Position numbers and translations under genes: made by a program. Below the pieces are notes generated by a model. It was not told the DNA's origin. It worked only from the letters and a program-made list of their open reading frames with translations, and did not search any database. This document shows, one piece after another, positions 1-55,335 of a stretch of 64,000 nucleotides of DNA; within the stretch, counting starts at the first letter, position 1; each line of letters opens with the position of its first letter. The stretch comes from Methylobacterium sp. Leaf104 (lineage in GTDB: Bacteria > Pseudomonadota > Alphaproteobacteria > Rhizobiales > Beijerinckiaceae). The stretch lies in contig NZ_LMMZ01000037.1 of NCBI RefSeq assembly GCF_001422885.1, positions 188,105-252,104 of the forward strand, in the 5' to 3' direction.

Positions 1-1
1 C

Positions 2-151
2 CTCGACTGGACCCCGCAGGATCGCGCCGCCGCGACGGCCCACCAGCCTTATCACGCCCCCGACGCACCACGTCCGCGGGTCCAGGCTTCGGCGTCCGAG
101 CGCCCGCCCCTGCGCACGCCCCTGCCGAGCCGGCAGCGCCAGACCACCTGA
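2..151 (+). CDS. C-terminal fragment of an unidentified protein
   Basis: An open frame runs in from the left edge and ends at a TGA at 149-151, giving the last 49 residues of a protein whose start lies outside the window. The tail is rich in Pro, Arg, Gln and Ala, begins LDWTPQD and ends RQRQTT, and has no recognisable domain. Disordered tails like this are common on alphaproteobacterial envelope and DNA-handling proteins, so no function can be assigned. The next gene converges on it, 33 bases away. Confidence 0.45.
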   Translation, partial: LDWTPQDRAAATAHQPYHAPDAPRPRVQASASERPPLRTPLPSRQRQTT

Positions 152-184
152 AGGCGGCGCCGGCCGGCAACCGGCCGGCATGGC

Positions 185-526
185 CTATTCGGCGAGGTCG
201 AGGCGATGGCGCCCGGCGCGGTCGTCGATCTCGACGATCCAGAGGTCGTCGTCGAAGCGCAGCTCCTTGCCGAGCCTGATCTCCACGTCGGCGGGCGAGG
301 CCTCGCTGAGGAGGGCCACGAAGCGGCGGTCGCCGTCGCCTTCGGAATCGACCAGCGATTGCGGGGCCGGCCCGTAGAGATCGGCGCGGCCGTCGAGGCG
401 ATCCACCTTCACGAAGATCGCCCCCGCCTCGGGGGAGCCGCGCCGGCGCTGGACCGCGGCGATGCCCTCGATGTCGAGGCGGCGAAGATGGGCGGAGACC
501 CAGAAATCCGAGCGCAGGCGTGCCAT
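185..526 (-). CDS. DUF1491 family protein
   Basis: This is a 113-residue soluble protein. It matches the DUF1491 family through its opening (RLRSDFWVSAHLRR), the central GSPEAGAIFVKVDRLDG stretch and the following YGPAPQ motif; the family is confined largely to alphaproteobacteria and has about this length. Its biochemical role is unknown. It has no signal peptide or membrane segment. It lies just downstream of the peptidoglycan-binding gene on the same strand, with only about 30 bases between them, so the two are probably co-transcribed. Confidence 0.8.
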   Translation of the reverse strand: MARLRSDFWVSAHLRRLDIEGIAAVQRRRGSPEAGAIFVKVDRLDGRADLYGPAPQSLVDSEGDGDRRFVALLSEASPADVEIRLGKELRFDDDLWIVEIDDRAGRHRLDLAE

Positions 527-557
527 GCGCGGGTCTATAGCACGCCGCCCCGCCGGA

Positions 558-1277
558 TCAGCCCCGCGTCACCCCCGCCCGGGTGGCGAGCTCGCGGAAG
601 GTCCGCTGCGAGGGCTCGCCCTTCACCGGCAGCTTGCGGTCCCGCTCGAACTTCTCGATCGCCGCCCGGGTGCTCGCGCCCATCAGGCCGTCGGCCTTGA
701 GCGGCCCGTAGCCGAGCTTGACCAGGGCGCGCTGCGCCTGGGCGATCGACAATCCGCCGAGGCTCGCGACCGAGGCGGTGGTCTCGGCGCCCGCCGACTC
801 GCCGGATCTGATGAGCTCGCCGATGCCGTCCCGCGGCGCCTTGGCCGCACCTTCGGACCCGGCCGGCTCGTCCCTCGCCTCGGACCTGGCCACTTCGGAC
901 CTGGTCGCGTCCGCCTTGGCGACCTCCCCCTTGGCCACCTCCCCCTTGGCGACTGCGGAAGCCGGCGGCTTCGGCCCTTCGGCCGCGCGGGAGACCGTCG
1001 CATTCGGAGGAAGCTTCGGGAAGATCGGCGCGGGGTGGCGGCCCATCTGATAGCCCAGCGCGTTCAGGCAGATCATCGATACCGCGCCGAGGACGGCGGC
1101 GACCCCGAGCACCTCGCCGGGATGGCGCAGGACGGCGCGGCCGGCGCCTCCAGCCAGCGCGCTCAGTCCCGCCAGGCGGCCGGGGGGCGGGCGGCGCCGG
1201 GCCACGGGCCGCGCCTCGCGGGTGCGGGTCGGAACCACGATCTCTCGCTGGTCGCGGCGTGCGTGCGGCTCGCGCAT
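558..1277 (-). CDS. Membrane-anchored peptidoglycan-binding domain protein
   Basis: This 239-residue protein has four parts. A basic Arg/Pro-rich cytoplasmic N-terminus covers roughly residues 1-50. One membrane segment follows near 56-75 (VLGVAAVLGAVSMICLNALG). A low-complexity periplasmic linker built from decayed VAKGE/VARSE repeats spans about 110-150. The C-terminal domain is a PG_binding_1-type fold (LSIAQAQRALVKLGYGPLKADG, then STRAAIEKFERDRKLPV). The domain binds peptidoglycan in many hydrolases and regulators, but no catalytic domain is present here, so the protein may be a tether or scaffold. A hairpin separates it from the upstream histidine kinase gene. Confidence 0.75.
   Translation of the reverse strand: MREPHARRDQREIVVPTRTREARPVARRRPPPGRLAGLSALAGGAGRAVLRHPGEVLGVAAVLGAVSMICLNALGYQMGRHPAPIFPKLPPNATVSRAAEGPKPPASAVAKGEVAKGEVAKADATRSEVARSEARDEPAGSEGAAKAPRDGIGELIRSGESAGAETTASVASLGGLSIAQAQRALVKLGYGPLKADGLMGASTRAAIEKFERDRKLPVKGEPSQRTFRELATRAGVTRG
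880..960 (-). repeat. In-frame 12-15 bp tandem repeat in the linker of the peptidoglycan-binding protein
   Basis: Units resembling ttggccacctccccc and cggacctggccactt are repeated in tandem with decay. They encode VAKGE-, VAKAD-, VARSE-type units in the periplasmic linker. Length variation here would change the linker without shifting the frame. Confidence 0.7.
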
Positions 1278-1308
1278 CGGATCTCCTCAGGGCTGGTCGC
1301 AACGGCGT

Positions 1309-1335
1309 CCGGGCCTCGCGCGATGCGAGGCCCGG
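1309..1335 (-). terminator. GC-rich hairpin between the kinase and the peptidoglycan-binding gene
   Basis: A perfect 11-bp stem (ccgggcctcgc paired with gcgaggcccgg) closes a 5-nt loop. It lies after the kinase stop codon and before the next start on the minus strand. No T-run follows, so it could be a Rho-assisted terminator or an mRNA-stability element. Confidence 0.5.
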
Positions 1336-1366
1336 GCCGCCCGGTGCTGGCAGGATTCCGGCGCGC

Positions 1367-3364
1367 TCATCCGACGCGCCGCAAGGGAACGTAGCTCTCG
1401 CGCACCGGCTCGGGGCTCGATTCGAACAGGCCCATCGGCCGGCGCATCGGCACGGGACCGTCCTTGGCGGCGGCGACGAGGCTGCCGCCGGCGATCGGCG
1501 AGCGCAGGCGGGTGCGGATGGTCGCGGCCGGGATGGCACCGGTGGTGGCCCGGCACTCGCGCGGGAGGGTGACGGTGATCGTGGTGCCCTCGCCGCGGGT
1601 GCTCTCGATGAGGATGGCGCCGCCATGCAGGCCGACGAGGCCCTGCACCACGGAGAGACCGAGGCCGGTCCCCTCGTGGGTGCGCTCGTAGCCGCCGGCA
1701 CATTGGTAGAAGGGGCTTCCGACGCGGGGCAGGTCGGCCTCGCTGATGCCGATGCCCGTATCGGCGACGATGAGGTCGAGGTGCTTGCCCGAGCCGCGCA
1801 GGCCGACCTCCACCCGCCCGCCGCGCGGGGTGAACTTCAGCGCGTTCGACAGGAGGTTGATGAACATCTGCCGGCAGGCGCGCATGTCGGCGGTGATCTC
1901 CACCGGGGCGGCGCTGGCGTCGCGCACCAGGGTGATGCCGGCCTGGTCGAACTTGAGCTGCATGAGGGTGCAGCAGGTCTGGACCAGGGCCGAGAGGTCG
2001 AAGGGCTCCGGGGCGTAGTCGAAGTGGCCGCTCTGGATGCGCGACATGTCGAGGAGCGTGTTCACCACTTCCAGCAGGTGCTGGCCGGAATTGCGGATGA
2101 TGCCGGCATATTCGCGGGTGCGCTCGGGATCGGTGGCGATGCCGCCCTCCCCCGACAGCACCTCGGAGAACCCGATGATGGCGTTCAGCGGCGTGCGCAG
2201 CTCGTGGCTGACATTGGCGAGGAAGCGGCTCTTCACCTCGTCGGCGCGCTCGGCCTCGGCGCGGGCCTGCTCCAGCTCCTCCGCGTGGCGGCGATGCTCG
2301 GTCACGTCGCGCGTCACCGCGACGACGCTCGACTGCAAGCGGCCGGGCACGGCCGTCTCCGCCGCCTGCTCGTCGATCCGGTGGATGCGCATCTCGGCGA
2401 AGATGACCCGGGACGCGCCTTCGGCGCGGGCGGTCGCGAAGTCGAGGTGCAGGCGGAACTGCACCCGCGCCGGACGGCCATGGGCGGCGACGTCGCTCAA
2501 AGCCTGCAGCAGGAGGGGGCGGTCACCGACATGGACCCGTTCGAGCAGGCCGTGGCCGTGCAGGGCCGTCGGCTCGGCGCCGAGGAAGCGGCTGGCCGAG
2601 GCGCTGGCGTCGAGGACGCGGCCGTTGTGGTCGTGCCACGTCACGAGGTCGTCGATCGCCGAGAGCAGCATGCGGTCGCGGCGCTCGTTGTCGCGCAGGC
2701 GGGCGAGCCAGCGGCCTTCGTGCCGGAAATGTTCGAGGGCCTGGGCCGCGATGTGCCCGATCGCCGTGATCGCGAAGACCGGCATCGCCAAGGCCCGCGA
2801 CCATTCGGGCAGAGGCGTGCCCTCGGTGAGGGGCGGCAGCACGGCCACGGCCAGCGCGCCCAAGGCCGCGACGATGGCGGCCGCCAGGGTGGCGCGCCGC
2901 GAGCCCGAGACCACGGCCTCCAGGGGAATCGCCACCAGCCAGATCGCGGCGGCGGAATTGGCGCCTCCGGTCATCATCGCGAGGCAGACCACCACGCCGG
3001 TGAGGCCGGCCGAGGAGATGGCGTGGGCGAGCCAGAGAATGCCGGTGCGGGAGAGGAGGACGGCGGCGAAGACCGGCAGCATCAGGCTGGCGATCGCCAG
3101 GGCCTCGACGCCGGTCGGAACCCCGCGCAAGACGAGGTAGGGCGGCAGCCCCAGCATCATCATCAGGCCGGTGGCGAGGCGGGAGACGAGGAAGCGCTCG
3201 TGCCGGAAGCGCACGCCGCCATCCTCTGTCACCGACTCATGGACGAGCCCGGTGAGGCGGACATCGATGAGGGAAGCCAGGGCACCGTAGATACGCAATA
3301 CCGACACGCACAGCGCGGACGATGACCCGACGGCCACCCCGACGCCCCTTGGCTCGACGAACAC
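1367..3364 (-). CDS. Membrane PAS-domain sensor histidine kinase (DivJ/PleC/PdhS-type)
   Basis: This is a 665-residue hybrid-less kinase. Residues about 60-210 form a bundle of five or six membrane helices. A PAS domain spans about 228-355, a short coiled coil follows (AEELEQARAEAERAD), and the kinase core comes last. His387 sits in [16 protein letters not shown], the N box is INLLSNALKF (Asn503/507), G1 is DTGIGI at 535 and G2 is GTGLGL at 565. This HisKA subtype is typical of alphaproteobacterial cell-cycle kinases that signal to DivK and PleD. A DivJ-like architecture (N-terminal membrane bundle plus PAS) fits best, but identity was not tested. The start is a GTG at 3364; the first 40 residues are weakly supported and a later start is possible. 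Confidence 0.8.
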   Translation of the reverse strand: MFVEPRGVGVAVGSSSALCVSVLRIYGALASLIDVRLTGLVHESVTEDGGVRFRHERFLVSRLATGLMMMLGLPPYLVLRGVPTGVEALAIASLMLPVFAAVLLSRTGILWLAHAISSAGLTGVVVCLAMMTGGANSAAAIWLVAIPLEAVVSGSRRATLAAAIVAALGALAVAVLPPLTEGTPLPEWSRALAMPVFAITAIGHIAAQALEHFRHEGRWLARLRDNERRDRMLLSAIDDLVTWHDHNGRVLDASASASRFLGAEPTALHGHGLLERVHVGDRPLLLQALSDVAAHGRPARVQFRLHLDFATARAEGASRVIFAEMRIHRIDEQAAETAVPGRLQSSVVAVTRDVTEHRRHAEELEQARAEAERADEVKSRFLANVSHELRTPLNAIIGFSEVLSGEGGIATDPERTREYAGIIRNSGQHLLEVVNTLLDMSRIQSGHFDYAPEPFDLSALVQTCCTLMQLKFDQAGITLVRDASAAPVEITADMRACRQMFINLLSNALKFTPRGGRVEVGLRGSGKHLDLIVADTGIGISEADLPRVGSPFYQCAGGYERTHEGTGLGLSVVQGLVGLHGGAILIESTRGEGTTITVTLPRECRATTGAIPAATIRTRLRSPIAGGSLVAAAKDGPVPMRRPMGLFESSPEPVRESYVPLRRVG

Positions 3365-3628
3365 TCGACTGAGGCGAACGTCGCAGAGCCGACTTAAGCG
3401 AGTCTTGCGCTAGACAGTCCGATTGTCTCCGCATGCTTTCCGGGACGTAACCGTGACCGGTCGCCGAGACAGACCTTTTCGGGGCATGACACGAAAAAGC
3501 CTCGAAATGCATCGCGCTAAGCTTGTGTTCACCATTCCGGCGCTTTGCGGGCGACGGGTCAAGCGGTCTTTACCGGTCGCCCGCGACGGTCGGCGCGCCT
3601 CCCGCAGGGGCGCGTCCGGGCCAGACCC

Positions 3629-3952
3629 ATGTCATTCCTCATCCGTGCCGGCCTGGTGATCGGCGCCCTGTCCTGGCTGGCACTCCAGCGCCAGGGCGAG
3701 TCTCTGCCGGCGGGGCCGGCCGCCGCCGGCGCGGCCGCGGCGGCCTGGGACGCCCTTCCCGCCGAAATGCGTGACGCGGCCTTGCGCGAGGGCGCCGCCG
3801 AGATCGGGCGGCGGGCCGGCCAGACGCTCGCCGCGTCCGCGATTTCCCGTGACACCTTGTCGGAGAGTGACAGGAAAGTTCCCTGGCGGGGCGCGCAAAG
3901 CCACGCTGATCGCGCTAGGCATGCGGAGCGCGGGGAACGCACGGCCCCGTGA
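3629..3952 (+). CDS. Small membrane-anchored protein of unknown function
   Basis: This predicted 107-residue protein begins MSFLIRAGLVIGALSWLAL, a single N-terminal membrane segment or uncleaved signal. It continues with an Ala/Gly-rich stretch and a helical region (WDALPAEMRDAALREGAAEIGRRAGQTLAASAIS). I chose the ATG at 3629 because the hydrophobic segment follows it directly; the upstream in-frame extension is basic and shadow-like. No family was recognised. It lies immediately upstream of cydB on the same strand, where a cydA would normally be, but it is far too short and lacks any cytochrome bd subunit I motif. Confidence 0.5.
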   Translation: MSFLIRAGLVIGALSWLALQRQGESLPAGPAAAGAAAAAWDALPAEMRDAALREGAAEIGRRAGQTLAASAISRDTLSESDRKVPWRGAQSHADRARHAERGERTAP

Positions 3953-3992
3953 TGCGGTAGGCGATTCGCAGCGCGGACGAGGGACGTAGCGG

Positions 3993-5039
3993 ATGTTCGG
4001 CTTTGGAATGGAATACGAGGGCGCGGCCTTCTGGCTGCCACTCGTCTGGGCCGCGCTGCTCGCGGTCGCGGTGGCGATGTACGTCGTCATCGACGGGTTC
4101 GACCTCGGGGTCGGCATCCTGTTCACGGCGGCGCGGAAGGGCAACTGGCGCGACCGCATGATGCTCTCGGTCGCCCCGATCTGGGACGGCAACGAGACCT
4201 GGCTGGTCCTCGGCGGCGGCGGGCTGTTCGCGGTGTTCACCGTCGCCTACGCCATCCTGCTGCCGGCCCTCTACATCCCAATCATCCTGATGCTGATCGC
4301 CCTGATCTTCCGCGGCGTCGCCTTCGAGTTCCGATTCAAGGCCAACCGCTCGCAGTTCGTCTGGGACTACGCCTTCCATTACGGCTCCCTGGTGGCGACC
4401 TTCGCGCAAGGCATGGTGCTCGGGGCCTTCGTCCAGGGCTTCAAGGTCGAGGGTCGCGGCTTCTCCGGCGGCACCATGGACTGGCTCACCCCCTTCAGCG
4501 TGCTGACCGGAATCGGCCTCGTCTGCGGCTACGGCCTGCTCGGCGCGACCTGGTGCGTGATGAAGACCTCGGGCGAGCTCGAGATCTGGGCCCGGCGCAA
4601 GAGCCTGCAGTTCCTGGCCGCCACCATCGTGTCGATGGCGGTGGTGAGCGCCTGGGTGCCGTTCCTCGGGCTCGACATCCAGTGGCGCTGGATCTCCTGG
4701 CCGAACATCCTCTACGTGGCGCCCGTGCCGATGGTGACGGCCCTCGTCGCCTGGGGCATCTTCCAGGGCATCCGCGACGGTCGCCACGTGGCGCCCTTCC
4801 TCCTCACCATCGCGCTGTTCCTGCTGGGCTTCCTCGGCCTCGCCATCAGCCTGTTCCCCTACATCGTGCCGCCGCACTACACGATCTGGCAGGCGGCCAA
4901 CGCGGTCAGCGCCCTGCAATTCGCCCTCGTCGGCTACGCCGTGGTGATGCCCCTGACCCTCGCCTATACCGGCTACGCCTACTGGGTCTTCCGGGGTAAG
5001 GTGGCGGAGGACATCGAATCCGGGGGCTACGGGCATTGA
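3993..5039 (+). CDS. cydB: Cytochrome bd-type (cyanide-insensitive) quinol oxidase subunit II
   Basis: This 348-residue integral membrane protein has about eight or nine helices. It carries the conserved CydB opening (LPLVWAALLAVAVAMYVVIDGFDLG), followed by APIWDGNETWLVLGGGGLFA and FRGVAFEFRFK. In bd oxidases subunit II pairs with the haem-carrying CydA to oxidise quinol and reduce oxygen in the inner membrane. It is full length. The stop overlaps the TTG start of the DUF2474 gene by four bases (TTGA), so the two are translationally coupled. No cydA lies next to it, which is unusual because cydAB or cioAB normally form one operon. Confidence 0.93.
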   Translation: MFGFGMEYEGAAFWLPLVWAALLAVAVAMYVVIDGFDLGVGILFTAARKGNWRDRMMLSVAPIWDGNETWLVLGGGGLFAVFTVAYAILLPALYIPIILMLIALIFRGVAFEFRFKANRSQFVWDYAFHYGSLVATFAQGMVLGAFVQGFKVEGRGFSGGTMDWLTPFSVLTGIGLVCGYGLLGATWCVMKTSGELEIWARRKSLQFLAATIVSMAVVSAWVPFLGLDIQWRWISWPNILYVAPVPMVTALVAWGIFQGIRDGRHVAPFLLTIALFLLGFLGLAISLFPYIVPPHYTIWQAANAVSALQFALVGYAVVMPLTLAYTGYAYWVFRGKVAEDIESGGYGH

Positions 5040-5158
5040 GCGGGCGCTCGTCCGCCGCCAAGGGCCGCCGGCTGCTCTGGTTCGTCGCGTTCTATGCCGC
5101 CAGCCTCGTGACCTTCACGGCGCTGGTCTACTTCCTGCGCGCCATCGTGAAGGGGTGA
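5036..5158 (+). CDS. DUF2474 single-helix small protein, probable bd-oxidase accessory subunit
   Basis: A 40-residue reading frame starts at a TTG that overlaps the cydB stop. After a basic SGRSSAAKGRR head comes a single membrane helix (LLWFVAFYAASLVTFTALVY) and a short FLRAIVKG tail. The pattern RxxWFVxxxxxSLxxxxxxxYxLR is that of DUF2474, whose genes sit directly after cydB/cioB in many Proteobacteria. By position and topology they are thought to act like CydX as a small oxidase subunit. The overlap and the family match together outweigh the unusual start codon. Confidence 0.75.
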   Translation: MSGRSSAAKGRRLLWFVAFYAASLVTFTALVYFLRAIVKG

Positions 5159-5219
5159 CCGGCGCCCCGGTTCCCGGTGAAGGCGCCGCCCGGACGCCCC
5201 ATTCCGGCAGGCGCGGGAT

Positions 5220-5244
5220 GGGGTGAGGCCTGTGGGCTCACCCC
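5220..5244. terminator. Hairpin between convergent DUF2474 and dgcA genes
   Basis: An 8-bp stem (ggggtgag with ctcacccc) surrounds a 9-nt loop and overlaps the dgcA stop codon. It lies between the two convergent transcripts and could terminate either. There is no T-tract. Confidence 0.4.
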
Positions 5245-6224
5245 CACAATGCGGGCTCGGGCGGGTGGATCAGGCTGCCCTCGAAGCGCAGGGCCGGCTC
5301 CCGGTCGCGGGCCAGCAGGAGCGGGCCGTCGAGGTCGACGTACTCCGCGTGGTGGGCGAGCAGCATGGCGGGCGCCATGGCGAGGGACGTGCCGACCATG
5401 CAGCCGATCATCAGGGAGAAGCCGCGCGCCCGCGCCTCGTGGGCCAGCATCACTGCCTCGGTCAGGCCACCGGCCTTGTCGAGCTTGATGTTGATGGCGT
5501 CGTAGCGCCGGCTGAGGGCGTCGAGGCCGGCGCGGTCGTGCAGGCTCTCGTCGGCGCAGATCGGGATCGGCCGGCCGATCTCGGCGAGGAGCGCGTCCTC
5601 CCCGGCGGGCAGGGGCTGCTCGATCAGCCGGACATCGGCGGCGACGCAGGCCGCGAGGTTGGCCTCGATCGTGTCCGGGCGCCAGGCCTCGTTGGCATCC
5701 ACGATAAGACGGGACTCGGGCGCGCCGCGCCGCACGGCGGCGATCCGCTCGGGGTCGCCGGCGCCGCCGAGCTTCACCTTGAGGAGCGGCCGGTGGGCGG
5801 CCTTGCGCGCGGCCGCCTCCATGCTCTCGGGATCGCCGAGGCTGAGGGTGTAGGCGGTGGTGGCCACCTGCGGCGCGGACAGGCCGGCGATGGCGAAGGC
5901 GGGGCGCCCGAGCTGCTTGGCCTCCAGGTCGAACAGGGCGCAGTCGAGGGCGTTGCGCGCGGCCCCGGCCTTCATCCCGACCTGCAGGTCGGCCCGGGTC
6001 GCCCCCATGGCGATCGCCTCGGCATGATCCTGAATCAGCGCGACGACGCTCTCCACGGTCTCGCCGTAGCGGGCATAGGGCACGCACTCGCCGCGCCCGG
6101 CCCGGCCCTCCGCGTCGGTGACGGTGGCGACGACCACCACCGCCTCGGTGCGGCTGCCCCGCGCGATGGTGAAGGCGCCCGCGATCGGGAAGCGCTCGAC
6201 CGCGACGTCGAGGCGCCGGGTCAC
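5238..6224 (-). CDS. dgcA: N-acetyl-D-glutamate racemase / dipeptide-epimerase-like enolase superfamily enzyme
   Basis: This 328-residue protein is an enolase-superfamily member of the muconate-lactonising/dipeptide-epimerase type. It shows the catalytic KVK pair (LLKVKLGG), metal ligands in VDANEAW, EQPLP and CADES, and the second catalytic lysine in NIKLDKAGG. Alone it would be called L-Ala-D/L-Glu epimerase. Directly downstream of a DUF1611 gene, it matches DgcA, the N-acetyl-D-glutamate racemase of the D-glutamate pathway. The GTG start overlaps the dgcN stop by four bases (GTGA). Substrate specificity is inferred from the pairing. Confidence 0.8.
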   Translation of the reverse strand: MTRRLDVAVERFPIAGAFTIARGSRTEAVVVVATVTDAEGRAGRGECVPYARYGETVESVVALIQDHAEAIAMGATRADLQVGMKAGAARNALDCALFDLEAKQLGRPAFAIAGLSAPQVATTAYTLSLGDPESMEAAARKAAHRPLLKVKLGGAGDPERIAAVRRGAPESRLIVDANEAWRPDTIEANLAACVAADVRLIEQPLPAGEDALLAEIGRPIPICADESLHDRAGLDALSRRYDAINIKLDKAGGLTEAVMLAHEARARGFSLMIGCMVGTSLAMAPAMLLAHHAEYVDLDGPLLLARDREPALRFEGSLIHPPEPALWG

Positions 6225-7264
6225 GCGCTCGCCCCCGTGGTCGCGGGCGGGAATTCGGCGACGATCCGGTCGACGATCTCCTCCACGCCGAAGCGGACCG
6301 GGTCTGTGGCCGGCAGGTCGTGCGCGCGGGCGAGGTCGGCGAGGAGCGTCCGGGCCGCCCCCTCCTCCAGGTCCTGGGTGTTGACGGCGATGCCCACCGG
6401 ACGGATGTCCGGGTTGGTCAGGCGTCCGAGCTGGACCGTGAGATCGATCACCTGCCGGATGCTGGGCAGCGGGTGCTGGACGCCGCGCATGGTCGTCCGG
6501 GTCGGCTCGTGGCAGACCACGAAGGCATCGGCCTGCGCCCCGTGCAGCAGCCCGAGGCTGACGCCGGCGAAGGAGGGGTGGAACAGCGAACCCTGGCCCT
6601 CGAGCAGGTCCCAGTGGTCCGGAGCGGCCGCGGGCGCGATCCACTCGACGGCGCCGGAGATGAAATCGGCCACCACCGCGTCGATGGCGACGCCGCGCCC
6701 CGAGATGAAGACGCCGGTCTGGCCGGTGGCGCGGAAATCCGCGTCGAGCCCGCGCTCGCGCATGCCGCGCTCCAGGGCGAGCACGGTGTACTTCTTGCCC
6801 ACCGAGCAGTCGGTGCCGACGCTGAGCAGGCGGCGGCCGGGCCGCCGGCTGCCCTTGCCGGTGGCGAAGGTCTCGGAGGTGTGGCGCACGTCGTGGAGCC
6901 GGCGGCCGTTCCGCTCGGCGGCCTCGGAGATCGCCGGCACCGCCCCGAGGCGCGCATGCAGCCCGCTGGCGATGTCGAGTCCCGCCTCCAGGGCCGAGAC
7001 GACCTCGGCGATCCAGTGCTCCGGCAGGACGCCGCCGGCATTGGCGACGCCGATCACCATCGTGCGGCAGCCCTTCGCGACGGCCTCGGCCAGGGTGAGG
7101 TCCGGGATCCCGAGATCGGCGGCGCAGCCCGGCAGGCGCAGCTGGCCGACGCACCACTCGGGACGCCAGTCCTTGATGCCGTAGGCCGTCTTGGCGGCGA
7201 GGCGATCGGGCACGTCGCCGAGGAACATCAGGTAGGGCGTCTCGATCTGCATCGCGTCACTCAT
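6221..7264 (-). CDS. dgcN: D-glutamate N-acetyltransferase DgcN (DUF1611)
   Basis: This 347-residue DUF1611 protein carries a P-loop-like motif near residues 149-160 (VGTDCSVGKKYT). Other conserved blocks include MVIGVANAGG, QTGVFISGRG, EGQGSLFHPS and VCHEPTR. DUF1611 enzymes paired with an enolase-type racemase are the DgcN proteins that N-acetylate D-glutamate so it can be racemised and re-enter L-glutamate metabolism. I chose the ATG at 7264 because it begins the conserved MSDAMQIETPYLMFLGD region. It overlaps dgcA and is divergent from the GST gene. Linkage to cell-wall D-Glu recycling is inference. Confidence 0.82.
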   Translation of the reverse strand: MSDAMQIETPYLMFLGDVPDRLAAKTAYGIKDWRPEWCVGQLRLPGCAADLGIPDLTLAEAVAKGCRTMVIGVANAGGVLPEHWIAEVVSALEAGLDIASGLHARLGAVPAISEAAERNGRRLHDVRHTSETFATGKGSRRPGRRLLSVGTDCSVGKKYTVLALERGMRERGLDADFRATGQTGVFISGRGVAIDAVVADFISGAVEWIAPAAAPDHWDLLEGQGSLFHPSFAGVSLGLLHGAQADAFVVCHEPTRTTMRGVQHPLPSIRQVIDLTVQLGRLTNPDIRPVGIAVNTQDLEEGAARTLLADLARAHDLPATDPVRFGVEEIVDRIVAEFPPATTGASA

Positions 7265-7438
7265 CGGCCGAGGATGGACCCCTCGCCTCCTCCTATGCGC
7301 GATGATCACGGCGCTGCCAAATCGTGCAATCCGCCGGCATTCGCCGGCAGAACGGGCTTGCGGGCCGGCGCGATGTCGGGTGTGGTCGCCGGACGATAAG
7401 AGACGGATAAGATTCCGCGAAGAGGAAACGTTGCGCGC

Positions 7439-46876: not shown

Positions 46877-47556
46877 TGCGTGCCGCCATCGTTGTCTTTC
46901 CTGGCTCCAACCGCGACGGGGATGTCGCCCGGGCTTTGACCCAGTCGGGTGCCGAGGTCGTAAAGGTCTGGCACGCGGACACCGAGTTGCCTGCAGGAAC
47001 CGATTTGGCTGTTCTCCCGGGTGGGTTCTCGTATGGCGACTACCTGCGGTGTGGCGCCATCGCGGGGCGTGCGGCCGCTATGGACGCGGTTCGGGCCCAC
47101 GCCGCTCGCGGCGGCTTGGTTCTGGGCATTTGCAATGGCTTTCAGATCCTGTGCGAATCGGGTCTGCTGCCCGGTGTCCTGATGCGGAATGTCGATCGGC
47201 GCTTCATTTGCCATCGCCAACTGCTACGCGTGGAGCGCGCCGATACAAGATTCACCTCCGCCTATACCAAGAATCAGGTCATCGACGTCTGCGTGGCCCA
47301 TGGTGAGGGCAACTACTTCGCCGATCCAGGCATCATCGCGCGCCTCGAGGGCGATGGTCGGGTGGCGTTCCGCTACTCCGACGCCGACGGGAAGCTGACG
47401 GTCGATGCGAACCGCAACGGCTCGCTGAACTCCATCGCGGGCATCTACTCCGAAAAGCTCAACGTCCTCGGCCTGATGCCGCATCCGGAGAACTTCGTAG
47501 AGGATCTCGTCGGTGGAACGGACGGACTAGGCCTGTTCACGAGCCTCGCCGCCTAG
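46876..47556 (+). CDS. purQ: Phosphoribosylformylglycinamidine synthase subunit PurQ
   Basis: This 226-residue class I glutamine amidotransferase supplies ammonia for FGAM formation. The nucleophile cysteine is in LVLGICNGFQILCESGLLPG, the oxyanion region in VLPGGFSYGDYLRCGAIA, and the catalytic His-x-Glu in GLMPHPENF. It is complete. purL does not follow in this window; the next gene is on the opposite strand. Confidence 0.96.
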   Translation: MRAAIVVFPGSNRDGDVARALTQSGAEVVKVWHADTELPAGTDLAVLPGGFSYGDYLRCGAIAGRAAAMDAVRAHAARGGLVLGICNGFQILCESGLLPGVLMRNVDRRFICHRQLLRVERADTRFTSAYTKNQVIDVCVAHGEGNYFADPGIIARLEGDGRVAFRYSDADGKLTVDANRNGSLNSIAGIYSEKLNVLGLMPHPENFVEDLVGGTDGLGLFTSLAA

Positions 47557-47569
47557 CTTGCCGCCGCGT

Positions 47570-47597
47570 CCGTCGTTCCGTGGTTGGGGAACGACGG
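47570..47597. terminator. Bidirectional hairpin between purQ and apt
   Basis: A perfect 10-bp stem (ccgtcgttcc with ggaacgacgg) has an 8-nt loop and lies in the 49-bp gap between convergent genes. Confidence 0.7.
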
Positions 47598-47605
47598 ATC
47601 GGGCC

Positions 47606-48151
47606 TCAGTGCCCGTCGAATTCCATCAAGGTCCGGACCGGTACATCGAGGTCGCGCAGCTTCTGTGCGCCGCCGATCTCCGGCAGGTCGATGACGAAGC
47701 AAGCCGCCACCACCTCGGCTCCGATCCGGCGCAGCAGATTCACGGCCGCGCAGGCCGTGCCGCCGGTGGCGATCAGGTCGTCCACGACAAGCACACGGTC
47801 GCCCGGCTTGATCGCGTCGACGTGAATTTCCATCTCATCGGTGCCGTATTCGAGCGCGTAGGCGATCGACACGGTCTTGTGCGGCAGCTTGCCCTTCTTC
47901 CGAATCGGCACGAAGCCGGAGGAGAGCTGGTGCGCTACCGCGCCGCCGAGGATGAAACCCCGCGCCTCGATGCCCGCCACCTGATCGATCCGGCCGCCTG
48001 CATAAGGGTGAACCAGCGCGTCGACCGCGCGACGGAACGCGCGCGGGTCGCTCAGCAGCGTTGTGATGTCACGAAAGACGATCCCGGGTTTCGGGTAATC
48101 CGGGATCGACCGGATCGAGTCCTTCAACGCGATGTGGCGGCGGGTTTCCAT
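47606..48151 (-). CDS. apt: Adenine phosphoribosyltransferase
   Basis: This 181-residue type I phosphoribosyltransferase salvages adenine to AMP with PRPP. It shows the family opening [22 protein letters not shown], the base-recognition region [14 protein letters not shown] and the PRPP-binding loop [17 protein letters not shown]. Length is typical. It is convergent with purQ, so salvage and de novo purine genes share a terminator region. Confidence 0.95.
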
Positions 48152-48201
48152 ACGGGCGGCCCTTGTCGAGGAGAGTGGAAGCGAGGAGGACTCGGTCCCC
48201 C

Positions 48202-48996
48202 TCAGGCGTTGGCGCGGCGCAGGAGCTTCACGAGTTCACCATGCAGGACTTCGTTGCCGCAGGCCACCGACCGGGCGGCCAATGGCTCGGCACCGCCATC
48301 GGCACTGGTGACGAAGCCGCCAGCCTCGCGCACCAGGATGATTCCCGCAGCGATGTCCCAGGTCTGCAGATCGCGCTCCCAGTAGAGGTCGGAGCGACCG
48401 CAGGCCACGTAAGCGAGGTCGAGAGCGGCCGAGCCGAAGCGGCGGGCACCTCCTGTTACGGCCATCACGGCGGCGACCTCGCGCAGGAGCTTCGGGTGAT
48501 CGCCTCGGCCGAGATAGGGCGAGCCGTAGGCGACCAGGGCATCGGCCATATCGGTCCGCCCGGAGACGCGAAGGCGGCGGTTGTTCAGGTAGGCACCTTT
48601 GCCGCGCTCGGCGACGAAGAGCTCGTCCTTGGCCGGATCGTAGATCACGCCGGCGACGATCTGGCCCTCGCGCTCCAGACCGACCGAGATGGCGAAGTGC
48701 GGGATACCGTGAAGGAAGTTCGTGGTACCGTCGAGAGGATCGACGTGCCAGGTGTGGCTCTTGTCCGCCCCCTCGACGTTGCCGGATTCCTCCAGGATGA
48801 GCCCATAGCCTGGCCGCGCCTTCATCAACGCATCCTTCAGGACTTCCTCGGCCTTGCGGTCGGCTGCGGAGACGAAGTTTCCGGGACCCTTACGGGAGAC
48901 CTGCAGGTTCTCGATCTCGCCGTAATCGCGCTTGAGGCCGCGGGCCGCCTTGCGCACGGCGTCGACCATGACGGTCATGAGGGGTGAGCTGATCAT
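48202..48996 (-). CDS. suhB: Inositol monophosphatase family protein (SuhB-like)
   Basis: This 264-residue Mg-dependent phosphatase shows the family's metal site [19 protein letters not shown] and the C-terminal [15 protein letters not shown] motif, with the first ligand in ILEESG. Members hydrolyse inositol or other sugar monophosphates. SuhB itself also acts in ribosome and RNA biogenesis in E. coli; which role applies here cannot be read from the sequence. It is upstream of apt on the same strand. Confidence 0.87.
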
Positions 48997-49112
48997 CGAT
49001 CTTCAGGTCCAGGCCGATTCAAAGAACGTTGGTTCGAGAAACATCCGGCGCGGCCATAGCACGTTTGCGCGCCGGCTCACCCCTGTCGAATGCGGGTCTG
49101 CCCTACGGGCTG

Positions 49113-50138
49113 CTAATTGACCTTCGCGCGATCGGCCGCAAGAGCCTCGGCGCGCTGGCGCTCCGTCGGCTCCAGACCCTTCAGGTTTTCGTCGAGCCAG
49201 GGGTCCGACAATCCCTGCGCCGAGGCAGCGAGATTCCAGGCCGCCGCCTCAACCAAGTTCTTCTGAACGCCGCGCCCAACCACGAACAGTCGCGCGATCC
49301 GATTCTGAGCGATGGCGTTCCCACGAGCAGCGGCGTGCTGGAAGTAGCGCGCGGCGCGCGTCTCATCCTTCGGCAGGCCGGTGCCGTTGAAGAGAAGGAT
49401 GGCGAACTCGACCTCGCCGGCCAGATCGCCGTTATCCGCCGCCCGCCGGAACCATTCGGCGGCCTGGGTCGAATCCTTGGTCACGCCGCGACCCTGCAGG
49501 TAGAGGACCCCGAGATCGTGCTGTGCGGCGCCGATCTCACCGTCGGCCGCCTTGCGGAACAGGGTGGCGGCCCGGGCCTGATCCGGGTCGGTGCCGGTGC
49601 CCAGGAGGATCAGCGCAAGGTTGTAGGCTGCGGTCGTGTCCCCCTTCTCGGCGGCTTTCTCCAGCCATTGCCGCCCGGCTTTCATGTCCTTGGCGCCCCC
49701 ACGCCCGTCGATGGACATCAGGCCGAGCGACGCCATCGCGTGCACGTCGCCCTGCGCAGCTGCGAGGCGGTACCATTCGGCTGCCTTCACCGGGTCCTGC
49801 TTGAGGCCGAGACCCTGATTGTAGAGTTCGCCCAGCAGCGTCATCGCCGCCGCATCCTTCGGATCGGCCGCGATCCGCTTCGTCGCCTCGCGGAATGCAG
49901 TCGTGTACTGACCGCGCTGGTAGGCGCCGAAGGCCGTATCCGCCGGCTTGTCGCTGGGCTTCGCCATGAAGGGCACGGACCGCATGGCATTCGGGGAGTA
50001 GGGTGTCGGCAGTTCCTTAAGGGGTGCCGAGAACACCTCGCGTGTCGCGGGCTTCGCCGCTTCCGGCGACAGCGACGACGCAGCGTAAACCTCGCCGAGA
50101 CCGAAGATCAGCGCCGTGAGGCTGAGCGCCACTCTCAC
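49113..50138 (-). CDS. Exported Sel1-repeat protein
   Basis: This 341-residue protein has a signal peptide (MRVALSLTALIFGLGEVYAASS) and about six Sel1-like tetratricopeptide repeats from residue 90 on. The repeats have the consensus AxxWYRLAAAQGDxxAxxxLGxLYxxGxGVxxD. Such solenoids mediate protein-protein contacts in the periplasm, often in envelope stress or polysaccharide pathways. Its start overlaps the stop of the thiE-like gene by four bases, which couples the two. Confidence 0.85.
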   Translation of the reverse strand: MRVALSLTALIFGLGEVYAASSLSPEAAKPATREVFSAPLKELPTPYSPNAMRSVPFMAKPSDKPADTAFGAYQRGQYTTAFREATKRIAADPKDAAAMTLLGELYNQGLGLKQDPVKAAEWYRLAAAQGDVHAMASLGLMSIDGRGGAKDMKAGRQWLEKAAEKGDTTAAYNLALILLGTGTDPDQARAATLFRKAADGEIGAAQHDLGVLYLQGRGVTKDSTQAAEWFRRAADNGDLAGEVEFAILLFNGTGLPKDETRAARYFQHAAARGNAIAQNRIARLFVVGRGVQKNLVEAAAWNLAASAQGLSDPWLDENLKGLEPTERQRAEALAADRAKVN

Positions 50139-50797
50139 GCGGTCGCCTCCCGGACGGCGGCCACCTGCATCTGGATGGCGCCGACGTCGGCGGTCTCGCC
50201 GATCCAGAGGGTACTTTCCAGCCCGAGGAACTCGGCGCCCGTGGCCAGGAGCGGACCGACCTGATCCGTTGCATGCGCGACAGCGATGCAGGGTGTCTCG
50301 AAGATCTCAGTCCACCAGCCGGCCCGGTCTAGCACCGTCTCGGCATCCGGCGCCATGCCGTCAGCGTAGAGACCGCCGAACATCACGTAGTCGACACCGG
50401 CCTCGCCGGCCTCCATGGCCGCGTGCTTCTGCTCGTGCCCACCTGCGCCGAGGATGCGTCCGTCGGCGAGGCGCTCACGCAGATCACGCAGATCACCGTC
50501 TCGCGCCTTGTCCAAGTGAATCCCGTCGGCCCCGCCGCGCGCCGAGACGCTGACAAGGTCGCCGGCAAAGCCTGAGCAGGCGACGACCATAGCGGCACCC
50601 GCATCCTGAGCCACCGGCGCCAGACGCTTGACCAAATTGACGAGGCTGCGTTCGTCGGCCGGGGCTAGGCGTAGGATGACGGCGGCGACATCGCCGGCCA
50701 TGCAGGCGGCGGTGATCGCGGCGGCGAGCGCTTCGGCGTCACCGGCCTCGACCTGGTGGGGACTGAGCAGAGCGAGGCGGGTGCGGGGTTCCGACAT
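50135..50797 (-). CDS. Degenerate thiamine-phosphate-synthase-like TIM-barrel protein
   Basis: This 220-residue protein follows the ThiE fold pattern, including GGADGIHLDKARDGDL and AGEAGVDYVMFGG. Catalytic signatures are not conserved. The strand-2 R-E-K motif reads VILRLAPADE, the pyrophosphate-binding P-T-x-T-K loop after the GxGP strand reads GGLYADGMAPDAE, and the terminal GGI phosphate loop reads AHATDQVG. It is thus unlikely to be a normal TMP synthase. It lies between fba and the Sel1 gene. Similar thiE-like genes sit beside fba in other Hyphomicrobiales, hinting at a role tied to sugar phosphates. Confidence 0.7.
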   Translation of the reverse strand: MSEPRTRLALLSPHQVEAGDAEALAAAITAACMAGDVAAVILRLAPADERSLVNLVKRLAPVAQDAGAAMVVACSGFAGDLVSVSARGGADGIHLDKARDGDLRDLRERLADGRILGAGGHEQKHAAMEAGEAGVDYVMFGGLYADGMAPDAETVLDRAGWWTEIFETPCIAVAHATDQVGPLLATGAEFLGLESTLWIGETADVGAIQMQVAAVREATA

Positions 50798-50816
50798 ACG
50801 GTGTCCTTCAGACGCC

Positions 50817-51890
50817 TCAGCTCGCAGCGCCGATCTTCGGATCGAGAGAGCCATTGGCGTAGCGCTTGGCCATGGTGGCCACGGAAACCGGGCGGATCTT
50901 GGAACCCTGGCCAGCGGTGCCAAACTCTTCGAAGCGCTGCCTGCAGAGCTTGGTCATCGCTTCCATGGCGGGCTTCAGGTACTTACGCGGATCGAACTCG
51001 GCCTTGTTCTCGGCGAGGATCTTCCGGATCTGACCGGTCATCGCCATCCGGTTGTCGGTGTCAATGTTGATTTTGCGCACACCGTGCTTGATGCCGCGCT
51101 GGATCTCCTCGACCGGCACGCCCCAGGTCGGCTTCATCTCGCCGCCGTACCGGTTGATGATGTCCTGGAGGTCCTGCGGCACCGACGAGGAGCCGTGCAT
51201 CACGAGGTGGGTCGTGGGCAGGCGGCGGTGGATCTCCTCGATCACGTTCATCGCCAAGACGTCGCCGTCAGGCTTGCGCGTGAACTTGTAGGCGCCGTGC
51301 GAGGTGCCCATGGCGACGGCGAGGGCGTCGACCTTGGTGGCCTCGACGAACTTCACGGCCTCGTCGGGATCGGTGAGGAGCTGGTCGTGGCTAAGCACGC
51401 CCTCGGCACCGTGGCCGTCCTCGGCCTCGCCCTGACCGCTCTCCAGAGACCCAAGTACGCCGAGTTCGCCCTCGACCGAAACGCCGGCCCAATGGGCCAT
51501 CTTGGTGACGTTGCGGGTGATCTCGACGTTGTAGTTGTAGTCGGCAGGGGTCTTGCCGTCCGCCTTGAGCGATCCGTCCATCATCACCGAGGTGAAGCCG
51601 TACTGGATGGCGGTGGCGCAGGTGGCTTCATCGCTGCCATGGTCGAGGTGCATGCATACCGGGATGTGGGGATAGATCTCCACGAGGCCGTCGATGAGCT
51701 TGGCCAGTACGATGTCGTTGGCGTAGGCGCGCGCGCCCTTGCTCGCCTGCAAGATCACCGGAGAGTCGGCCGCATCCGCCGCCGCCATGATGGCGAGGCC
51801 CTGCTCCATGTTGTTCAGGTTGAACGCGGGCACGCCGTACTCATGCTCGGCGGCATGATCCAGGAGCTGCCTCAGGGTGATGCGGGCCAT
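50817..51890 (-). CDS. fba: Class II fructose-bisphosphate aldolase
   Basis: This 357-residue zinc aldolase cleaves or forms fructose 1,6-bisphosphate (and probably sedoheptulose 1,7-bisphosphate in methylotrophs and autotrophs). Zinc ligands lie in [20 protein letters not shown] and the later GTSHGAYK and HGSSSVP segments, and the phosphate-binding NIDTDNR motif is present. The ATG at 51890 follows GAGGAG. The frame extends further upstream without conserved sequence. It is in the same direction as pgk with a 198-bp gap. Confidence 0.96.
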
Positions 51891-52088
51891 GGGTTTCTCC
51901 TCAGATACGAATGCCGCGAAGGCGATCCGCCAACCGACGCGCCAGGGGGCGCAATCCTTCCGATTTCGTTCGTCTTTTCGGATCTTTGCCGGTCCGTTGC
52001 AACTCTCGCAGGACAGCAATCCGGGGACGCGGCGCGGTGTCGGAGGACGTAGGCCGTCCTCCCGGATTTCACCGCGTCGCGACTGCGG

Positions 52089-53291
52089 TCAGCCCTTGGC
52101 GCGCAGGGCCTCGACGCCGGGCAGTTCCTTGCCCTCGAGCCATTCGAGGAATGCTCCGCCGGCCGTGGAGACGTAGGAGAAGGTCTCGCCCACGCCCGCA
52201 TGGTTCAGGGCCGCCACCGTGTCGCCGCCACCAGCCACCGAGACGAGCTTACCGGCCTTGGTCCGCTCGGCCGCATGCTGGGCCGCCGCCACGGTGGCGG
52301 CATCGAATGGCGTCAACTCGAAGGCGCCGAGCGGACCGTTCCAGACCAGGGTCGCGGCCTCGTCGATGGCTGCATTGATCTCGGCCACCGAGGCAGGGCC
52401 GGCATCGAGGATCATGCCGCCGTCCGGCACGGCATCGACCGACACCGTCTGGTACGCTGCGTTCGCCTTGAACTCGGAGGCCGAGACCGCGTCGACCGGC
52501 AGGATGATCCGGCACTTGGCCGCCTTGGCCGCCTCGACGATGCGCAGGGCGGTATCGGCAAGGTCCTTCTCGCAGAGCGATTTGCCGACAGTCTTGCCCT
52601 GCGCGTGCAGGAAGGTATTGGCCATGCCGCCGCCGATGACGAGCATGTCGACTTTCGCGACGAGGTTCTGAAGGAGGTCGATCTTCGAGGAGACCTTGGC
52701 ACCGCCGACGAGGGCGATGACCGGACGAGTCGGGGCTTCCAGGCCCTTGGTCAGGGCGTCGAGTTCGGCCTGCATCAATCGACCGGCAAAAGCGGGCAGC
52801 AGGTGGGCAAGCCCTTCCGTCGAGGCGTGCGCCCGATGCGCGGCCGAAAACGCCTCGTTGACGTAGAGGTCGCCGTTCACGGCCAGCTGCTCGGTGAAGA
52901 CCTTGTCGTTCTTCTCCTCGCCGGCATGGAAGCGGGTGTTCTCGAGGAGGAGGACGTCTCCGTCCTTCAGGCGCGCGACGGCATCGGCCGCGGCCGGGCC
53001 GACGCAATCCTCGGCAAAGGCGACCGAGAGGCCGAGCTTCCGGCTCAAGGTCTCCACGACAGGCTTCAGCGACTCGGACGCGACGGGCTTTCCTTTCGGA
53101 CGCCCAAAATGCGCCAGCAGCACCACGCGGCCGCCCTTGTCGGCGATCTCGGCGATCGTCGGCACGATCCGCTCGATACGGGTGGCGTCGGTGACGCGTT
53201 CACCCTCCATCGGTACGTTCAGGTCCACGCGAAGGAGCACGCGCTTGCCCTGAAGCGGGCCGGCATCGTCGAGGGTGCGGAAAGCGGTCAT
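52089..53291 (-). CDS. pgk: Phosphoglycerate kinase
   Basis: This 400-residue enzyme transfers phosphate between 1,3-bisphosphoglycerate and ADP. It shows [10 protein letters not shown], the substrate-binding [26 protein letters not shown], the hinge [13 protein letters not shown] region and the ADP-binding [12 protein letters not shown]. The ATG at 53291 begins the conserved region. It is downstream of the coiled-coil gene by 37 bases, so gap, the coiled-coil gene and pgk may form one transcript. Confidence 0.97.
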
Positions 53292-53328
53292 CGGGGCCTT
53301 GGCTCTGGTCGGGCGGGACGAGTCTGGA

Positions 53329-53805
53329 TCAGCGCGGCGGCAGCATCGCATCCAGGTGGAAGCGCTGAGCGGCGATTGTCAGTGCGACCGTGAGGACTGC
53401 AGTGATGATCGCGGTGAGCACGAGAGCACCGGAGCCGGGAAGACCGCGAGTGCGGTCGGCGATGGCACGGACTTCGCTGCGGAGGGCGGAGAGGTCGCTC
53501 TGGCGGGCTGCCTCGTTCATGCGGCCGGCGGCACCTTCGACCTTCTCCTCGACGCGGGACAGCAATGCCTCGGAGCGCGCATACTTGTCCTCGATCCGCG
53601 AACACTTGTCCTCGATCCGGGCCAGCTGATCGCTACTCGGTCCGTTGCCGTGCGCCGGGAGAGGTGCGGCCTTGCCGATCAAGACCGGATCTGCCGGAAC
53701 CGAACCGGCGGGGGCCGTAGCCGGCGCGGGCGCCGGCGACGGGGGTGCTGAAGTGCCTGGAATGAAGTCGCGTCCGGTGGGGGAGGTCTCTGTCATGTCA
53801 GGCAC
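53329..53805 (-). CDS. Coiled-coil protein with C-terminal membrane anchor
   Basis: This 158-residue protein starts with a Pro/Ala-rich tail (about 1-55). A coiled coil follows, carrying the direct repeat [20 protein letters not shown], then a helix ending in IADRTRG. A single C-terminal membrane helix comes last ([20 protein letters not shown]). No family was recognised. Its place between gap and pgk is shared by small unknown genes in related genomes. The short repeat at DNA level suggests recent internal duplication. Confidence 0.65.
53583..53624 (-). repeat. 21-bp direct repeat inside the coiled-coil gene
   Basis: Two adjacent 21-bp copies, both beginning acttgtcctcgatccg (53583-53603 and 53604-53624), encode the repeated RIEDK heptad of the coiled coil. 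Confidence 0.8.
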
Positions 53806-53867
53806 ACCATGCTGGTCGTCGCGTGGTCTTCGGGAACCTTCGAACCGTCAGAAGTCGGTGAAGCGGC

Positions 53868-54875
53868 TCAGAGCAGCTTGCCCATGGCCACGGCCGTGTC
53901 GGCCATGCGGTTCGAGAAGCCCCATTCGTTGTCGTACCACGACAGGATGCGCACGAAGGTGCCGTCCATGACCTTGGTCTGGTCGAGATGGAAGGTCGAC
54001 GAGTGGGGGTCGTGGTTGAAGTCGATCGAGACGTTGGGCTGATCGGTGTAGGCCAGCACGCCCTTGAGCGGACCGTCGGCGGCGGCACGGATCGCGTTGT
54101 TGATCTCCTCGACTGTGGTCTGGCGCTTGGCCGTGAAGACGAGATCGACAGCCGACACGTTGGGGGTCGGTACACGGATCGAGGTGCCGTCGAGCTTGCC
54201 CTTCAGCTCCGGCAGCACCAGGCCGACAGCCTTGGCCGCGCCGGTGGATGTCGGGATCATCGAGAGTGCAGCGGCACGGGCCCGGTAGAGATCCTTGTGC
54301 ATTTGGTCCAGCGAGGGCTGGTCGTTGGTGTAGGAGTGGATCGTCGTCATGAAGCCGCGCTCGATCCCGACGAGATCGTTCAGCACCTTGGCCACCGGCA
54401 CGAGGCAGTTGGTGGTGCAGGAGGCGTTCGAGATGACGAGGTGGTCGGCGGTCAACTTGTCGTGGTTGACGCCGTAGACCACCGTCAGGTCGGCTCCGTC
54501 GGCAGGGGCCGAGACGATGACGCGCTTGGCGCCGGCGTCAAGGTGGGCCTTGGCCTTGTCCTTCGACGTGAAGATTCCGGTGCACTCGAGGGCGATGTCG
54601 ACACCGAGCTCGCGATGGGGCAGCTCGGCCGGATTGCGCACGGCCGTGACCTTGATGCGTTGGCCGTCGACAACGATGAATTCGCCGTCGACCTCGACCT
54701 TGGCGTTGAAGCGGCCGTGGATCGAATCGAAGCGCAGGAGATGGGCGTTGGTCTCGACCGGGCCGAGGTCGTTGATCGCCACCACCTCGATGTCCTTGCG
54801 GCCGGCCTCGTGGATGGCGCGCAGGACGTTGCGACCGATGCGTCCGAACCCGTTGATGGCAACCTTCACCGACAC
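53868..54875 (-). CDS. gap: Glyceraldehyde-3-phosphate dehydrogenase, type I
   Basis: This 335-residue NAD-dependent GAPDH has the Rossmann opening [18 protein letters not shown], the catalytic cysteine in [17 protein letters not shown], the catalytic histidine in [10 protein letters not shown] and the C-terminal [12 protein letters not shown]. The GTG at 54875 is chosen because the fold starts within three residues and the product has the standard length. A longer in-frame reading upstream is not conserved. tkt, which precedes gap in several relatives, is not present; the upstream neighbour is divergent. Confidence 0.96.
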
Positions 54876-55335
54876 AGCGTGAGTCCTTCCCATAATCAGG
54901 CGCCGGCCACGCAGCACCCTCCAGCATGATGATCGTCGCGGCGTGCCCGACGGGCAGGCCTCGATCTGTTGCCCGCTCTGTGCGAGTCCCGATTGAACGA
55001 CAGATGAACTGCCGCGCAGGCCCGGGCGCGCGATCGCAGCCGAAGACCGGAAGGAAGCGCGCGGCGCGACGCTGACCAAGTTGGCGGACAGGGGCCTGTC
55101 CTCTCGCCTGATCGCGTCACGGGTTGCCGTATAGCCGGTCTGCGGGCGGGCGGTCTCTAACATGGTGACAAATCGCGGCAAAGGTTACATGGCACGCCAC
55201 ACGGGGTGGATAACCCTTTCCCGGTGGATACCCTGTCCCATCCCGGCATGGCGCAGGGGCGTCCGTCCGGTAAAACCGAAGTCCCGCTTAGCGTTCGGCC
55301 GGTGGAACGTTGTTGAAGAAAAGGGGCATTCATCC
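54876..55335. promoter_or_regulatory. Divergent promoter region between gap and the DUF4164 gene
   Basis: This 460-bp gap has no supported gene. It must hold the gap promoter on the minus strand and the DUF4164-zapA promoter on the plus strand. A direct repeat, ggtggataaccctttcccggtggatacc-like (two ggtggata copies near 55206 and 55223), lies on the zapA side. No clear -35/-10 pair stands out. Confidence 0.3.

Follow-up and report, generated by a model that had tools for sequence, protein, structure and literature searches.

A ThiE-like protein encoded in a glycolytic gene block of Methylobacterium sp. Leaf104 very probably has no thiamine phosphate synthase activity, and we consider it a likely pseudoenzyme that derives from ThiE and is maintained for some function other than thiamine phosphate synthesis. 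Its gene, of 220 codons for amino acids, occupies positions 50135..50797 on the minus strand of the window, by which we mean the whole 64,000-nucleotide stretch analysed (contig NZ_LMMZ01000037.1, positions 188,105 to 252,104). The active site has been lost, the gene is under selection and decayed copies persist in genomes without detected thiamine synthesis genes; taken together, this suggests that the protein probably has another job. That this job is a selected, non-catalytic one is the reading we favour by a little. The window gene is a decayed member of a ThiE subfamily of Alphaproteobacteria that is commonly encoded beside gap, pgk and an aldolase gene. Nearly the whole active site has been lost in the examined members of the window's order (Rhizobiales), with at least one further loss elsewhere.

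The gene was delimited by its open reading frame, its match to PF02581 and the scoring of its active site, and runs from an ATG at 50797 to a stop codon at 50137-50135. Its neighbours on the minus strand were assigned from open reading frames and profile matches. They are the upstream fba (class II fructose-bisphosphate aldolase, 50817..51890), pgk (phosphoglycerate kinase, 52089..53291), gap (glyceraldehyde-3-phosphate dehydrogenase, 53868..54878, start codon not fixed), a Sel1-repeat gene (49113..50138) and an inositol monophosphatase-family gene (48202..48996), which gives the block the order gap, pgk, fba, ThiE-like gene, Sel1, inositol monophosphatase, apt. The original prediction placed the gene at the right coordinates, 19 bases from fba and overlapping the Sel1 gene: the gap from the fba stop spans 50798-50816, and the Sel1 gene starts with a GTG at 50138, which gives a 4-base overlap (GTGA). 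Scanning 47500-55200 for promoters and terminators returned none on the strand of the ThiE-like gene. The Sel1-repeat protein (49113-50138) has five repeats and, by eye, a signal-peptide-like N-terminal stretch, and may therefore leave the cytoplasm.

Profile searches confirmed the predicted ThiE fold pattern, as the protein matched the TMP-TENI superfamily (PF02581) with an E-value of 6.8e-21 and 74.9 bits, above the cut-off of 27. Against the ThiE equivalog TIGR00693 it scored 44.4 bits, below the cut-off of 145.1. Its best NCBIfam match was NF005080 / PRK06512 (119.5 bits vs. a cut-off of 218), although this cut-off says little because it is reached in none of 289 genomes of the class. When a profile of 20 proteins from the order was compared with structures, ThiE 1xi3 was the best match (3.3e-18); the values for ThiE 1g4t and TenI 1yad were 3.1e-14 and 2.6e-07, respectively. 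The TenI model NF005819 had no match to the ThiE-like protein at an E-value of 1e-3. An AlphaFold2 model of the window protein, built with 12 Methylobacterium orthologues, had a pLDDT of 54.7 and a pTM of 0.47, and a scan of viral contigs for more distant relatives yielded none.

To describe the active site we scored 13 positions on an alignment to Bacillus subtilis ThiE, in whose structures they have active-site roles. Two of the 13 are kept in the window protein, R59 and D93. Compared with B. subtilis ThiE, QFREK has become ILRLA, the N-D pair A-D (with the D aligned across an insertion), the Q and D of GQED K and R, the S of GVS G, T-E-T-K D-G-M-A and the G-I of GGI H-A. Inspection of the whole protein by eye revealed no shifted T-x-T-K or GGI. 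The R-E-K, P-T-x-T-K and GGI motifs are altered, as had been proposed. Residue roles for B. subtilis ThiE were not found in the parts of PMC3144219 and PMC1819393 that were available.

The same scoring gave a median of 13 positions kept in 17 other ThiE proteins (nine with 13, six with 12, one with 11 and one with 7) and a median of one, ranging from zero to three, in 52 proteins from the order. Catalytic columns conserved in the class retain their residue in 0.11 of the order proteins, compared with 0.63 for the other class-conserved columns (11 vs. 63 columns, Mann-Whitney p 1e-5; the columns are not independent, and the class is represented by its well-scoring copies). The loss concentrates in the active site. 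The Sinorhizobium meliloti orthologue, which is annotated as a thiamine phosphate synthase, keeps one of the 13 positions, and the warning that an automatic thiE label would mislead is borne out by it. Counting the ThiE-like gene as thiE would produce false thiamine-synthesis calls in this large order, to which soil and plant bacteria belong.

The source genome contains two further ThiE-family genes, as well as ThiC and ThiG. One of the two (C37:126546-127076) scored 170.5 bits, exceeded the TIGR00693 cut-off with 151.3 bits and overlaps an open reading frame that by eye is ThiD-like; a search for a canonical thiE elsewhere in the genome, which had been suggested as a check, was thus successful. 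The other (L002, C1:635346-635879) scored 142.4 bits, fell under the TIGR00693 cut-off with 115.2 bits and adjoins ThiG. It keeps seven of the 13 positions, the N-D pair being missing, and may be TenI-like rather than ThiE.

ThiC was present in 65 of the 120 order genomes that were at least 95% complete. Judged by eye, each of these 65 also matched PF02581 with an E-value of at most 4.2e-41, which is the range of canonical copies. In 11 order genomes the operon-linked copy was the sole ThiE-family gene. Neither ThiC nor ThiM was found in any of these 11, and ThiG was represented by a single chance-level match of 21.8 bits, under the cut-off. All of the nine ThiC-less genomes with a canonical ThiE that we picked by eye for comparison had ThiM. 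No route to thiazole phosphate that avoids both ThiG and ThiM is known to us, and with neither gene detected, the operon-linked protein of the 11 genomes should lack a ThiE substrate. This comparison left out G433, which has an operon-linked copy, a part match of 27.8 bits and no ThiC, and G389 is not among its rows. An active site that is altered and still makes thiamine phosphate would agree with the fold family and with the public annotation of relatives. We regard this as very improbable, given that two of 13 positions are kept, that ThiC, ThiG and ThiM all went undetected in 11 genomes that have kept the gene, and that the window genome already has a canonical ThiE.

Outside the order, ThiC was not found in any of the seven genomes that had a decayed copy as their single PF02581 gene, among 20 loci that we picked down the NF005080 list and searched for ThiC only. 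All seven ThiC-positive genomes of the class that were chosen by eye for having the operon-linked copy as their single PF02581 gene kept 13 of 13 positions, and four of them had a strong ThiG match; G124, which is 68% complete, was excluded from this set. ThiC and intactness do not correspond one to one, since G067, G147 and G242 have a single intact copy and no ThiC. The window-type gene is not tied to thiamine genes.

The nearest named relatives are from Methylobacterium (89% in the best segment), and 58 of 61 relatives gave a match in a protein search, a number that may include canonical ThiE as well as the window-type gene. At all 42 loci examined in the genus, from 30 of the 37 genomes of the relatives search (source genome included) and 12 others, the ThiE-like gene is preceded by fba and followed by Sel1; no locus for the alignments was obtained from G047 or from seven genus genomes of the relatives search. 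Across the order, a gap, pgk or aldolase gene lies upstream at 39 of 53 loci and Sel1 downstream at 50, and none of the loci is without both. At 14 of the 53, a glycolytic gene upstream was absent within the flank covered, which was 1.5-3.5 kb and in some cases ended with the contig. Sel1 is therefore a steadier neighbour in the order than the glycolytic genes. In S. meliloti, Sel1 and inositol monophosphatase genes come after the ThiE-like gene, and no glycolytic gene was found within 4.5 kb upstream. Together with the 14 order loci, this shows that linkage to glycolytic genes is not obligatory. When 13 order genomes were searched with a profile, two had strong matches, G361, G353, G389 and G442 had divergent ones (83-91 bits), and that of G043 was weak; the copies in these last five are each located beside Sel1. 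In this search G050 had the canonical gene only, and five genomes of 1.3-1.4 Mb had no match.

A plasmid of Methylobacterium aquaticum (pMaq22A_1p, NZ_AP014705.1, 1.57 Mb) carries the whole block of gap, pgk, fba, ThiE-like gene, Sel1, inositol phosphatase and apt at about 1-7278, and the ThiE-like protein encoded there has just 47% identity to that of the window and an acidic low-complexity insert. On Paracoccus ferrooxidans plasmid pFER4 (CP038202.1, 4288-4899), a relative annotated as thiamine phosphate synthase is located next to guaA, away from glycolytic genes. Within the genus, the search reported one in-match TGA in one copy (G029:C28:29488-30132), and another match (G036:C1:6569604-6570193) was divided between two overlapping stretches whose frames differ, which may reflect a frameshift or a sequencing error.

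Beyond the window's order, at least one known neighbour was present at 35 of 39 best-scoring loci and at 13 of the 20 chosen down the score-ranked list; at the other seven, none of the neighbours sought was detected. The neighbours of the subfamily often include gap, pgk, an aldolase, Sel1, EF-P and inositol-phosphatase genes. An intact copy in Sphingomonas parapaucimobilis, for instance, lies in the order gap, pgk, aldolase, thiE, efp, inositol monophosphatase. The window gene fits this description, with gap, pgk and fba upstream, Sel1 downstream and K124, H125, E132, W161, W162, F190 and W198 present. The linkage to gap-pgk-fba that had been pointed out is thus real and common, but by itself it does not suggest a glycolytic phosphate-ester substrate: in other orders this neighbourhood also contains copies with a full active site, which means that the linkage does not track the loss. 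A different substrate, as had been proposed, would have to be accommodated although the phosphate-binding positions scored are mostly gone.

The state of the active site varied within the subfamily. Among the 39 best-scoring loci of the class, a set biased by choice, 31 keep all 13 positions, seven keep 12 and one (L056) keeps four; the last is counted here and was excluded from the class conservation columns. The 20 loci picked down the list comprised eight with 13 of 13 positions and 12 with zero to seven, which shows that copies outside the window's order are often decayed too. We accordingly rejected the notion that copies outside the order are all intact, which had been drawn from the biased best-scoring set. 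Three of these loci, in G095, G182 and G254, keep seven, five and six of the 13 positions and still match PF02581 at 37-41 in -log10 E, and their sequences look like half-decayed intermediates. Intact and decayed copies also occur within one genus, where G340 keeps 13 positions and G126 keeps three.

In a tree built without the 13 columns, these two copies were joined (100/97), and at least two changes between the intact and decayed states were needed, with the starred branches forcing two. Two losses are a floor, because long branches may falsely gather decayed copies. In a tree of 117 rows, other ThiE formed a side of their own (100/99) and the order copies grouped with one another (96/59); the bootstrap was not settled in either tree. 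The tree without the 13 columns indicates that the active site has been lost at least twice.

What survives the loss of the active site is, as read from the alignments, the marks of the subfamily. Fourteen columns are conserved in the intact copies and in the order and not in other ThiE, among them R/K124, H125, A127, M128, E132, F140, W161, W162, F190 and W198. In the window, all on the minus strand, the subfamily-specific stretch K124-H125-A-A127-M128-...-E132 is encoded at 50402..50428, the pair W161-W162 at 50312..50317 and W198, present in 85% of the 52 order proteins, at 50204..50206. E132 and W161 were found in 52 of 52. H94 (50516..50518), which corresponds to His107 of B. subtilis ThiE, is shared with canonical ThiE and present in 92%. 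Most decayed copies of other orders among the 20 loci keep the subfamily letters as well. These retained residues may form a binding face, or may have only a barrel-packing role.

The median dN/dS over Methylobacterium pairs (Nei-Gojobori, pairs with dS 0.05-1.2, not independent) was 0.128 for the ThiE-like gene (68 pairs), 0.149 for Sel1, 0.104 for pgk, 0.054 for gap and 0.037 for fba. Distances between ThiE-like proteins were 1.5 times those between canonical ThiE proteins of the same 18 genomes. The window gene is under purifying selection and is less constrained than canonical ThiE. This bears on whether the gene could be a relict whose protein does nothing and which is retained only to space the operon or to couple translation with that of Sel1, a reading that we think improbable. 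The 4-base overlap with Sel1, the faster change relative to canonical ThiE and the split match in G036 would suit such a relict, but its dN/dS is near that of pgk and below that of Sel1, E132 and W161 are invariant in the order proteins, and the gene is kept at order loci where no glycolytic neighbour was detected and at class loci where none of the neighbours sought was. In the 18 genomes, the rank correlation of distances was 0.58 with Sel1 and 0.66 with canonical ThiE (partial correlations 0.25 and 0.46). These figures are no sign of a Sel1 partnership, as the distances tie the ThiE-like protein to Sel1 no more than to canonical ThiE.

Purifying selection would also be expected of a new enzyme on the ThiE barrel that acts on another small molecule with re-invented active-site residues. 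His94 at the barrel mouth and K/R124-H125, which follow the strand carrying Ser130 of ThiE, could be such residues. We saw no near-invariant new polar residue in the order apart from those common to intact copies, however, the best order-only columns being Q64 (0.88), R87, G119 and G131 (0.71) and D at position 81 (0.69). We consider a new enzyme rather unlikely.

We instead conjecture that the window protein acts without catalysis by binding a partner or ligand, possibly through H94, K124-H125, M128, E132, W161-W162, F190 and W198, and that this role may have begun in the glycolytic/EF-P gene neighbourhood. A regulatory role, as had been proposed, may also be served in this way. Against such a role, no partner or ligand emerged from the analysis, and the co-evolution figures show no special tie to Sel1. 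A more specific and more tentative scenario is that the ancestor had two jobs: it would have been a thiamine phosphate synthase with a second function, based on R/K-H...E/WW/W and linked to the glycolytic and EF-P neighbours. Catalysis would then have been lost repeatedly, both in the order of the window and, separately, in one or more other families, with the second job kept even where thiamine synthesis is not apparent. Separate loss with the signature kept, as seen in the 20-locus sample and the tree without the 13 columns, makes this two-job ancestor more likely, although we still put it somewhat below even.

What appears new here is a probable pseudoenzyme branch, or several such branches, of the operon-linked ThiE subfamily. 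Repeated loss with a retained signature is more surprising than a single loss, and the subfamily provides a natural experiment, in which intact and decayed copies occupy the same kind of locus, once within one genus, and share residues that remain after the active site has gone. No paper on the ThiE-like gene was among the matches listed from open-licence PMC papers, which for part of the searches were the best 15 of 28, 15 of 641, 12 of 16 and 10 of 5,213. In the parts of two papers that were available, S. meliloti thiE2 has raised expression in a tolC mutant (PMC2912261), and Gluconobacter thiE1 was retained despite the loss of thiOSG, thiC and thiD (PMC8474910); either may or may not be the ThiE-like gene.

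Among known systems, TenI (PDB 1yad, named as regulatory protein TenI) has a related fold, but the window protein has no match to NF005819 and its gene lies outside any thiamine cluster. NF005080 / PRK06512, annotated as thiamine phosphate synthase, is the top NCBIfam match and is also matched by the intact copies of other orders, whereas the window protein scores under the cut-off of 218, like every match in the 289 class genomes. From ThiE itself (PF02581, TIGR00693; PDB 1g4t, 1xi3) the window protein differs in its two of 13 active-site positions, its 44.4 vs. 145.1 bits and its lack of a tie to thiamine genes, while the fold family, the structure matches of the order profile and the kept His107 are shared with it.
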